DNA from: a virus | Strand: one strand, 5' to 3' | Length of the DNA: 22,597 nt | Virus record (IMG/VR): IMGVR_UViG_3300035670_001321 | Location: 1 to 22,597 of that record | Shown: positions 16,062-18,991 of the stretch, in pieces | Layout of the letters: every line of letters starts with the position of its first letter | Position numbering within the stretch: the first letter of the stretch is position 1 | Program-made: the position numbers and the translations under genes | Notes under the pieces: model-generated | Seen by the model: only the letters and a program-made list of their open reading frames with translations | Told to the model about the DNA's origin: nothing | Databases searched by the model: none

Positions 16062-17312
16062 TTAGTAGAGGCGATAGTTGGTTTGGCCCATGCTGCCCGC
16101 TTTGGCGAGGTTGAATTGTTGTAGGCACAAATACCCAAAGGCATCGAAGGCGTGGTCGACGCCAAGGTTTTTGTTGGGGAGGCCAGTGCCGGGAGCGTAG
16201 GTGAGGGTGCGGAGGGACTTGATTAGTTCCTTGCAGCGGGGGTGGATGTAGGTGCGGCGGGTTCCAGTTGCATCGAGGAGGGCGGTGTTGACGGCGGTAA
16301 TCTTGTCGCGGATTTTCCAGGGGGCTTTGGGGCTGGAGACGCTGAAGCCGCTGCGGCGGAGGATGTTGTGGTCGGTGAGGCCCACGCCGCTGGTTTTGCG
16401 GGCGCCGCCGGTGGGGTCCGGGCAAGCTATGACACGGCGGTCCACGCCGAAACGGCGGGTGACTTCCTCGGCAAAGTCCCAGGTGGTTGCTCCACCTGTG
16501 AGCATGATTTCGTCGAAGACGTAGAGAGTGTCGTCTTTGCGGACGGCGCAGATGCCGGACATGGGATCCACGTTGAAGTCCACCCCAAGGAGGAGTGGAA
16601 GTATTGAAATATCGGTTGCTTCGGTGGAGATGTTTTCGTCGCCGAAGGAAATTGCCACCAAGCCGCTGAGGTTCTCGAAGCTGGCCTCGAATTCTTGGCG
16701 GAAGGTGCGGGCGTCGAGTTGACCTCGGGCTGCTTCAATCTCTTCTGGTGGGACGTTGTCGCCCTCAATCGTCGTGAATTGCCAGCGGCTCCAGTTCTCG
16801 TCGCCGCTATCCGCGTATTGCCAGAGTTCGTAGAACCAGCTAGCCGTGCCGTCCGGGGTGGAGATGAATAATGCCCAGCCTTGTTTGTCGGCGAGGGCGG
16901 GGCGGATCACCTCGAACCAGACTTCGCTGGACATAAACGCGGCTTCGTCGAGAACCACGCCAGCCAGGCTGCGGCCTCGGAGGGCCATTGCGTTTTCAGT
17001 GCCCTTCAGTTCGATGGTTGAGCCGTTCACCAGCTCGATCTTGAGGTCCGTCTCGTTTTTGCTCTTGATCCAGGCTTTCGGGACCAGCTTTTTCATCACC
17101 TTCCAGGCAATGTCTTTCGCCATCCGGTATGTAGGGGCGGCATAGAAAAAGGTTTCGCCCGGCCTTTCTATCGCCCCACGCAATAACTCGATACATGACA
17201 GGTAGCTCTTGCCGAATCGACGGCCCGCTACCAGCACTCTGAAGCGTTTTCGGCTGGAAAATACCTCACCTTGGGCGTAGCGAAGGGCGAGTGCTCCAGC
17301 AGATTCGGGCAT
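16062..17312 (-). CDS. terL: Terminase large subunit
   Basis: A 416-residue packaging motor. ATPase: Walker A GRRFGKS at residues 30-36, a Q-motif-like region before it, Walker B VVLDEA at 119-124, and the coupling motif STPDG at 151-155. Nuclease: GVDFNVD with D245/D249 and a C-terminal VDHAFDAFGY with D386/D390, the acidic residues that bind metal in RNase H-fold terminases. It drives ATP-dependent DNA translocation through the portal and cuts concatemers. Start at ATG 17312 has no clear ribosome binding site; a TACACT element lies 22 nt upstream. Unusually, it is separated from the small subunit gene by a lipoprotein gene and a repeat-rich spacer. Confidence 0.95.
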   Translation of the reverse strand: MPESAGALALRYAQGEVFSSRKRFRVLVAGRRFGKSYLSCIELLRGAIERPGETFFYAAPTYRMAKDIAWKVMKKLVPKAWIKSKNETDLKIELVNGSTIELKGTENAMALRGRSLAGVVLDEAAFMSSEVWFEVIRPALADKQGWALFISTPDGTASWFYELWQYADSGDENWSRWQFTTIEGDNVPPEEIEAARGQLDARTFRQEFEASFENLSGLVAISFGDENISTEATDISILPLLLGVDFNVDPMSGICAVRKDDTLYVFDEIMLTGGATTWDFAEEVTRRFGVDRRVIACPDPTGGARKTSGVGLTDHNILRRSGFSVSSPKAPWKIRDKITAVNTALLDATGTRRTYIHPRCKELIKSLRTLTYAPGTGLPNKNLGVDHAFDAFGYLCLQQFNLAKAGSMGQTNYRLY

Positions 17313-17334
17313 TTTTATTTGGGGGGTACCTTCT

Positions 17335-17340
17335 AGTGTA
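17335..17340 (-). promoter_or_regulatory. Putative -10 element (TACACT) for the large terminase gene
   Basis: CAATACACTAG lies 22 nt before the large terminase ATG. TTGCGA occurs upstream but at 9-nt spacing, too close for a normal -35 box. Confidence 0.45.
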
Positions 17341-17350
17341 TTGCAGGAAT

Positions 17351-17463
17351 CGCAACCCCTCCCCCGTGTGTAACAGAGGAAGGAATTGCGAATGTATCAG
17401 TAAGGTCCCTACGCCCAGCCCCGCGCGTCAGGATCCGCAACCCTCCCCCCACAACGGTAACGT
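17351..17463. repeat. C-rich direct repeats in the terminase spacer
   Basis: CGCAACCCCTCCCCC (17351-17365) recurs as CGCAACCCTCCCCCC (17436-17450), each followed within a few bases by GTAAC. Centres are 85 bp apart. The segment contains no open frame I would call. Such repeats beside terminase genes may be packaging-recognition sites, but position between the two subunits is unusual and nothing here proves it. Confidence 0.5.
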
Positions 17464-17475
17464 GATACTGTATAA

Positions 17476-17513
17476 CAACAGTAGGCCGTAACGGTGAAGC
17501 CGGCCTACTGTTG
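17476..17513. repeat. Perfect 13-bp inverted repeat between lipoprotein and large terminase genes
   Basis: CAACAGTAGGCCG (17476-17488) and CGGCCTACTGTTG (17501-17513) pair perfectly around a 12-nt loop. On the minus strand it starts 15 nt after the lipoprotein stop and is followed by TTATACAG, a poor T-run. It could be a terminator, a binding site for terminase, or a regulatory operator. Confidence 0.8.
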
Positions 17514-17528
17514 CGGTGTTGTGCCGCG

Positions 17529-17675
17529 CTAACGGCCCAGCACAACAAGCCGGCATTCGGCGGCGGATCGCCCGGCAGACTCACAGCGTGCCAGCTGGTT
17601 TGCATTGTCGGCGCCCATAGCTAGGACGCCGCAAGCGGTGAGCAGGGCGGCCAGGGTAAGGAGGCGGGATGACAT
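17529..17675 (-). CDS. Small lipoprotein-like protein
   Basis: A 48-residue protein with a classic short lipoprotein signal: basic start (MSSRLLTLAALL), hydrophobic core and lipobox L-T-A-C (Cys 15). The mature part is about 34 residues with two more Cys (QLARCESAGRSAAECRLVV). I chose ATG 17675 because it places Arg and the hydrophobic core at the N-terminus; an in-frame GTG at 17711 would add 12 residues. No ribosome binding site is clear. It lies between the terminase genes. Small phage lipoproteins include Rz1 spanins and superinfection-exclusion proteins such as Cor; it lacks the Pro-rich body of Rz1, so exclusion is the more attractive guess, unproven. Confidence 0.6.
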   Translation of the reverse strand: MSSRLLTLAALLTACGVLAMGADNANQLARCESAGRSAAECRLVVLGR

Positions 17676-17726
17676 GGGGAAGCGTGGTGAGCTTACCCGC
17701 CATTGTATCACAGAATCGCCGGTCGC

Positions 17727-18185
17727 CTAGCCCTGGCGCTTGTCTTCCACCACGATATTCAGCTGCGGTGCAGCGGCAGCCTGCGCTTCCGGTGCGACCT
17801 CGCCCACCACTGCACCAAGGTCCCGCATCAGCAGCTGAGCGCTGCCGATCTGGCCCTTCCGGATTGCTGCGTCGATTGCGCGGAGTCGCATCCCTTGGAG
17901 ACGTGAGACTATCGACTCGCGATCTCGCTTCCAATCATCCTCGTTCCACTTTTTAACCGCTTCCCAGTCTCTCCAGGCCGTAGCTTCAGCTATAGACTCA
18001 CGATCAGCGTGATCTAGCACCAGCTGGCGAACAGGCAGGCCAGTTAATTGCCGCTTGTAAAGTCTCTTCTGCCTCTCTTCAATAACGGCATTAGGATTCC
18101 GCTTCCCATAGGGTCGTTGCTTATTCTCTACAGTTTCCGCCGTAACTTCCGGCGCTTTGTTGATAGCTTCCGGATTGTCCGACAT
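17727..18185 (-). CDS. terS: Terminase small subunit
   Basis: A 152-residue protein upstream of the large subunit. The N-terminal 40 residues are polar and disordered. Residues about 38-75 carry RQKRLYKRQLTGLPVRQLVL with a following helix (ESIAEATAWRDWEAVKKW), a helix-turn-helix-like DNA-binding unit. Residues about 85-125 form an oligomerisation-type helix region (LQGMRLRAIDAAIRKGQIGS). It recognises the packaging site and regulates the large subunit. ATG 18185 has AAGGA 8 nt upstream, a strong ribosome binding site. Sequence recognition is moderate; position and size support the call. Confidence 0.72.
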   Translation of the reverse strand: MSDNPEAINKAPEVTAETVENKQRPYGKRNPNAVIEERQKRLYKRQLTGLPVRQLVLDHADRESIAEATAWRDWEAVKKWNEDDWKRDRESIVSRLQGMRLRAIDAAIRKGQIGSAQLLMRDLGAVVGEVAPEAQAAAAPQLNIVVEDKRQG

Positions 18186-18212
18186 TGTTAGAATCCTTGG
18201 TCGTTTGGTTCA

Positions 18213-18218
18213 ATACTA
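18213..18218 (-). promoter_or_regulatory. Putative -10 element (TAGTAT) for the small terminase gene
   Basis: TAGTAT lies 28 nt before the small terminase ATG and 22 bases after the terminator T-run at 18240. It is a variant of the TACACT pattern. No -35 seen. Confidence 0.35.
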
Positions 18219-18239
18219 GCGCCACCACTGCGGCACAAT

Positions 18240-18263
18240 AAAAAAGCACCGCCGAAGCGGTGC
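18240..18263 (-). terminator. Intrinsic terminator after the 234-residue gene
   Basis: Minus strand: GCACCGC, tetraloop TTCG, GCGGTGC, then TTTTTTATT: a perfect 7-bp stem with a stable UUCG loop and good T-run, ending before the small terminase promoter region. Confidence 0.92.
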
Positions 18264-18286
18264 GGACTGAGCGAAGCGAGAGCCGC

Positions 18287-18991
18287 TCAAACGCTGCGCA
18301 CAACGTGCCAGCTGCTGGGAGTCTCGCGGATCAAGCTGTAACCGTCATAGCTCAGATCACGCCAAGCGCCGGCCCAGTCAATATTGCTGATGGGCCAGGG
18401 CATGTCAGCCGGTATAGCGCCAATCTCATCCGCCAGTGTTTGAGCGTAGTCTGCGCCAGCCTGTTCTTCGCTGTAACCGTCAGCCGTGCCGCAGTAGGAA
18501 TCACACAGCTGCTCAGCTTCAATGCCGTGATCGTCAAAAGCCTGGATCAGCTCAGCCGTGCCAGCTGAATCCTCGCAGTCGATACCGCGCTCCTCCAATG
18601 CCTCGGCCCAATCCTCTGAGAGCCAGAAGCCGAAACAAGCGCCGTCGCCTTCTGAAGCGCCGAAGTAGAAGCCGGTAGGTGCCAGATCCTGCAGGGCTTC
18701 TGTCAGATCCTCCAGGGCTACATCAATCCACTGATGCTCGGCTTCTGTGATCTCAGCACAAGGCTGGGAGAACTGCCCATCAAGTGCTCGGGCAATGGTG
18801 GGTGAAGTGTTCAGTGCTGCTAGGAGTTCTATCCCCTTGATGCTGCAGCTGCCAAAAGTAGCCTCTGGCTTGTGCTGAATCAGCTGTTCCACTGCGGACC
18901 AGTAGGAGCAGAGCAGATCCTGCGGACGCAGCGTGTCAGTGCTGACGATCCAGGGGAAGGATGCCAGCTGTTCGGGTGTGTAGCGGGTCAT
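18287..18991 (-). CDS. Acidic protein with possible ArdA-like C-terminal region
   Basis: A 234-residue acidic protein. The C-terminal part (ADYAQTLADEIGAI, then PISNIDWAGAWRDLSYDGYS) resembles the terminal unit of ArdA-type antirestriction proteins, in which an acidic helix is followed by IDWE..AR.L; sequence similarity is modest. The N-terminal half (CSYWSAVEQLIQHKPEATFG) is unassigned. High net negative charge is consistent with a DNA mimic. Starts at ATG 18991 with AGG 8 nt upstream. Promoter TTGACG-N18-TACACT precedes it and a strong terminator follows, so it is an independent unit. If antirestriction, it would be expected early in infection, but no timing is shown. Confidence 0.55.
   Translation of the reverse strand: MTRYTPEQLASFPWIVSTDTLRPQDLLCSYWSAVEQLIQHKPEATFGSCSIKGIELLAALNTSPTIARALDGQFSQPCAEITEAEHQWIDVALEDLTEALQDLAPTGFYFGASEGDGACFGFWLSEDWAEALEERGIDCEDSAGTAELIQAFDDHGIEAEQLCDSYCGTADGYSEEQAGADYAQTLADEIGAIPADMPWPISNIDWAGAWRDLSYDGYSLIRETPSSWHVVRSV

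Follow-up and report, generated by a model that had tools for sequence, protein, structure and literature searches.

A conserved, precisely spaced DNA element was identified upstream of the gene for the terminase large subunit (terL) in the window, that is, the whole stretch of DNA analyzed, a 22.6-kb virus record whose main genes lie on the minus strand. The comparison of related sequences shows that the element is genuine and shared by a large group of phages, in which it would control the terminase/late module. The conserved unit, as judged from the alignments, comprises G1, the core, G2 and the leader (17320–17450, about 130 nt). Read on the minus strand, in the direction of TerL, the order is G1, approximately 25 variable nucleotides, the core, a pyrimidine tract, G2, the leader and the terL ATG (Table 1); G2 and G1 carry the same motif in the same orientation. 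The core consensus has also been given as GGGAACCTACTGAYAYAT.

Table 1. Features of the terminase region of the window (all on the minus strand).
Feature	Positions	Strand	Description	Evidence
terL	16062–17312	−	terminase large subunit, 416 aa	phrog_2, E = 1.1e-46; Pfam Terminase_6N, E = 8.7e-17
Leader	17320–17346	−	conserved, upstream of terL ATG	kept in relatives retrieved with the TerL protein, no DNA pattern being used
G2	17344–17365	−	G-rich repeat 2, GGGGGAGGGGTTGCGATTCCTG	
Pyrimidine tract	17366–17389	−	tract and TGTTACACA stretch, core to G2	
Core	17390–17411	−	TAGGGACCTTACTGATACATTC, consensus AGGGAACCTACTGAYAYAT	
G1	17429–17450	−	G-rich repeat 1, GGGGGGAGGGTTGCGGATCCTG	
Inverted repeat	17476–17513	−	perfect, 13 bp, 12-nt loop; terminator-like 3' hairpin, not conserved	
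Small ORF	17529–17711	−	60 codons, lipobox-like LTAC; variable cargo position	
HTH protein	17727–18185	−	putative terminase small subunit, 152 aa	linkage to TerL and structure model

The gene downstream of the element is clearly TerL, as indicated by its family matches. The segment between its start (17312, minus strand) and the stop of the small ORF (17529) spans 216 nt and, as the first-pass annotation had described, is non-coding and holds two C-rich direct repeats 85 bp apart and a perfect 13-bp inverted repeat (arms 17476–17488 and 17501–17513), with the small ORF and its lipobox-like motif adjoining. The repeat copies, C-rich on the plus strand and G-rich on the minus strand, are GGGGGAGGGGTT at 17354–17365 and GGGGGGAGGGTT at 17439–17450. 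The 12-mer pattern of the repeats, with two mismatches allowed, gave 10 matches in the window against 7.6 expected; thus, it is not rare there, and the pair is significant only through its relatives. In these relatives, the G repeats are kept, whereas the inverted repeat and the lipoprotein ORF proved to be private or variable neighbors. An 11-nt piece of the inverted-repeat arm was found in 12 other loci, never with its partner arm, so that the inverted repeat is private to the window. Lying behind the lipoprotein ORF and having no good T-run, it may be a 3'-end hairpin. At the cargo position upstream of the element, the small ORFs of other loci differ from that of the window. Farther upstream in the window, an ORF at 18287–18991 gave a weak match to the anti-restriction protein family phrog_2059 (E = 0.0041).

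A comparison among relatives had been called for beforehand, with lack of conservation of the repeats named as one half of the refuting evidence; the repeats are conserved, so this half fails. G1, the core, G2 and the leader, or a rearranged form of them, precede terL in most of the 80 TerL relatives with enough upstream sequence. Among loci found by the TerL protein alone, a G-run lies 37–41 nt before the core in 131 of 149 (distances of 37, 38, 39 and 40 nt in 1, 16, 97 and 17 loci, respectively; 16 of the initial 165 loci had too little flank and were left out), and in the control, the G-run/core pair gave 2 chance matches in 1.51 Mb. It should be noted that the core definition of this count overlooks most class-C loci (2 of 11), while a looser one finds 11 of 12. 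In class A, which has the gene order of the window, 97 of the 100 loci measured have 38–40 nt from the end of the first G-run to the AACC of the core (four of the 104 had no core or flank); the window's own distance is 37 nt in the class-A register. In 16 columns of the core, the mean pairwise identity over 118 non-redundant loci was 0.905; for comparison, 56 four-fold sites in terL gave 0.609 and the G1–core spacer 0.413. The second half of the core is A/T-rich (TGATACAT, AAATATAT, ATAAATAT), its composition being kept and its letters not. In the pattern-derived sets, the search pattern biases how conserved the G2 leader looks; the pattern contains neither G1 nor the core. A blastn search of the segment or the inverted repeat against the phage collection gave no match, and the G motif was absent from the fetched stretches of S-2L, LP.2, HTVC111P, HTVC026P and Vibrio 1.157.O. 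A genome-wide repeat family was rejected, as the other occurrences of the G motif in full contigs resembled chance or coding matches; the palindrome CTGTANTAC, considered as a genome-wide operator, had few and patternless matches.

G1 and the core form a rigid unit. A second unit, G2, sits close to the first co-directional terminase gene in most of the loci read. An insert at the core–G2 junction was present in 38 of the 157 typed class-A loci; the core–G2 distance is thus not fixed, and G2 must act separately or loosely. The insert is a small secreted-protein-like ORF with a CPFGTY motif in L006, L013, L034, L069 and L073, and an HNH-like gene occupies this place in L035.

The segment had been placed between the two terminase subunits, which stands for the TerL side and is a good, though putative, assignment for the side of the small subunit (TerS). 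The HTH ORF had no convincing match in Pfam, PHROG or NCBIfam, and its structure model (HTH at residues 33–63, long helix at 67–109, pLDDT 75.8) found no significant match in PDB with Foldseek and none above the background of other HTH proteins; weak matches were obtained in BFVD, some of them called terminase small subunit. A relative of the HTH protein lies near TerL, upstream, inverted upstream or downstream, in 137 of the 165 TerL loci, and 15 of the 28 loci without a match are short-flanked. From this linkage and the modest structure model, the HTH protein is treated as a putative TerS.

The element lies ahead of the terminase genes and is co-oriented with TerL in all four gene orders, and on this ground its role is well supported as being tied to the terminase/late module. 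The order of the window (A) is TerS–cargo–element–TerL. Order B, element–TerS–TerL, was assigned by script to 15 loci, all with a G1–core spacing of 38–40 nt; order C, element–TerL–TerS, comprises 13 loci, with this spacing in 11 of the 12 tested (L471, counted as having TerS downstream, reads as element–TerS–TerL). In order D, G1 and the core are followed by an opposite-strand TerS, G2 and TerL; the spacing was found in 24 of the 28 loci with flank out of 32, a few alternative core spellings having been added after the class-D sequences were read. These class counts come from a strict pattern, and some elements that can be recognized by eye escape it. A third G motif occurs in a few class-D loci. 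An inverted TerS stands between the core and G2 in L062, L065, L426, L428 and others, and a GATAATAACC-like motif in the TerS–TerL gap of such loci may belong to the promoter of TerS itself.

The N-terminal HTH of TerS occurs in two types with about 30–40% identity between them, which shuffle independently of terL (terL distances of 0.151 and 0.152). The element is the same with type 1 (91 loci) and type 2 (66 loci): the distance between G1–core sequences was 0.2996 within and 0.3015 between types (partial r 0.009, permutation 0.296), and the G2 stretch showed a weak but not nil association with the TerS type (r 0.023, permutation 0.046). This test covered 157 of 169 unique loci, 12 having no TerS match.

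Out of 177 loci, 23 have a terminator-like hairpin in the 200 nt preceding the core, against 1.2 expected from shuffles, and none has one between the core and terL. Thus, the terL promoter probably lies inside the segment, unless antitermination acts, and on account of the upstream hairpins the regulatory switch for the large subunit is the better half of what the first-pass annotation had proposed. In 14 of 176 loci, a GC hairpin with a T-run overlaps G1, and some G1–core spacers are themselves terminators. A palindrome, TGAGAATCATTCTCA, which we take to be Fur-box-like, lies upstream of G1 and after the cargo gene in L004, L030 and L032.

With moderate confidence, the element is read as the control region of the terminase/late operon, acting as double-stranded DNA. 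It would be a late promoter whose repeats bind a protein, and it may overlap a packaging site. A DNA-binding protein would sit on G1, and on G2; bound to G1, at the fixed distance of about 39 bp from the core, it would recruit RNA polymerase or a phage factor to the core or position it there, and transcription of the terminase and head/tail genes would start after the upstream replication/TerS/cargo transcript stops. The promoter activity, the binding protein and the overlap with a packaging start are putative. Three results favor transcription control, namely, the upstream hairpins, the independence of TerS type and the A/T-rich core half that is kept. Against a promoter, many class-A cores (CTGACATAT, CTGACACAT) have no good −10, the conserved stretch of about 130 nt exceeds what a promoter needs, and in class D a transcript from the core would cross the inverted TerS antisense. 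The variable core–G2 distance and the weak link of the G2 stretch to TerS type also count against it. A scan of positions 16900–18400 of the window for sigma-70 −35/−10 sites gave 0 sites, promoters for other factors being outside its reach.

It is possible, although rather doubtful, that the element is instead a packaging-initiation site (pac or cos), where terminase would bind G1 and G2 and cut at or near the core. One core per genome fits this reading (the core 15-mer GGRAACCTRCTGRYA occurs exactly once in 17 of the 18 larger records and is absent from the other), as do the direct repeats about 85 bp apart around the core and the fact that the element stays with the terminase genes in TerL orientation in four orders, even with TerS inverted. 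According to PMC6316719, the pac of SPP1 contains direct repeats and covers late promoters. The SPP1-type arrangement of a core ahead of the terminase genes with direct repeats on either side was found here as well. That the element is the same for both TerS HTH types argues against packaging; however, the SF6 TerS HTH is reported as non-sequence-specific (PMC4737164), which would fit the lack of covariation. Genes inserted between the core and G2 also count against it, and contig ends do not pile up at the element (4, 2, 2, 3, 3, 2, 3, 0, 3 and 2 per 100 nt upstream of the leader in 200 contigs, with 36 of 236 matches left out for a contig end of unknown position). The latter argument is weak because these are metagenome assemblies; several near-complete contigs run through the element, and such assemblies do not decide cos. 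On the G003 map, the breakpoints of the circular contigs G002 and G003 and of the near-complete G019 all fall in the DNA polymerase gene, no more than about 200 nt apart. Fixed genome ends in that gene were not supported, the shared break of contigs from different metagenomes being possibly an assembler effect. An unlikely reading is a late promoter and packaging start in one, set by TerL or some other conserved factor and not by TerS; if it were true, the DNA-binding domains, place and strand of TerS would be swapped around one constant site, and the choice of packaging site would be uncoupled from the usual recognition subunit.

Very unlikely is a replication origin, in which the direct repeats and the A/T-rich second half of the core would serve as initiator sites and an unwinding element, as in the SPP1 origins described as direct repeats with an A/T-rich element (PMC6316719). 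Against this, the recognized replication genes lie elsewhere, and the cumulative GC skew shows no shared turning point at the element: it peaks near the terL start of G003 and G006 but not of G002 or G007. We would hardly expect a structured RNA in the terL transcript, either a 5' UTR switch or a packaging RNA: the 216-nt strand of the window folds well (z −3.7), and a long core–G2 hairpin is formed in the window, L004 and L032 (z −4.9 to −6.8), but the mean z over 72 sequences is −0.34 with differing folds, genes are inserted between the hairpin arms, and the window has no Rfam match. At 17344–17389 of the window, the pyrimidine tract and G2 make up a long, nearly perfect hairpin, seen in the window's subclade only; an RNA hairpin of G2 with this tract was rejected as a general feature, being strong only in that subclade, and a tRNA or Rfam element was not supported in the window.

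The phage group is mostly uncultured and known here almost only from metagenomes; the best TerL identity in the phage collection was 43%, with no close isolate in it. A Prochlorococcus single-cell genome (L426) and a cyanobacterial MAG (L427) contain TerL relatives at 81–82% identity, as do MAGs labelled with other phyla; the hosts are likely, though not proven, to be picocyanobacteria. In G003, the replication genes extend leftward and the late genes rightward from terL, an arrangement that speaks for the control-region reading. No paper listed in searches of the open PMC library describes the element in its title or abstract, which is not proof of its being unpublished. The element provides a searchable cis-element (a G-run, 38–40 nt, then GAACCT and an A/T-rich box) by which the beginning of the late module can be recognized in unannotated sequence. 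It also raises a question open to testing, namely, why the site is constant while the adjoining small terminase is exchanged, moved and inverted.

Lambda-type cos (cosQ–cosN–cosB) is a multi-part site with repeated protein-binding boxes near the terminase genes. The element is alike in being a multi-part site near these genes, but here no fixed ends were seen and one of the two halves varies in its spacing. Phage late promoters that have an activator site upstream carry a box at a fixed distance from an A/T-rich core. The element shares this fixed box-to-core distance ahead of the late operon, whereas no sigma-70 −10/−35 was found here, a second copy of the box lies downstream, and the activator is putative. 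For the freshwater cyanosiphovirus S-LBS1, headful packaging is reported on the basis of PhageTerm (PMC6157547). In SPP1, TerS binds pacL and pacR and TerL cuts pacC. This pac overlaps the late promoters PL1/PL2 (PMC6316719); the SPP1 site is both promoter and packaging start, roles that are both putative here. Like the SPP1/SF6 pac region (PMC6316719, PMC4737164), the element stands in front of the terminase genes, and its direct repeats lie on both sides of a central stretch. The likeness is one of layout and not of compared DNA sequence. Unlike the SPP1/SF6 site, the element described here stays in place when TerS moves behind TerL, inverts or changes its HTH type.
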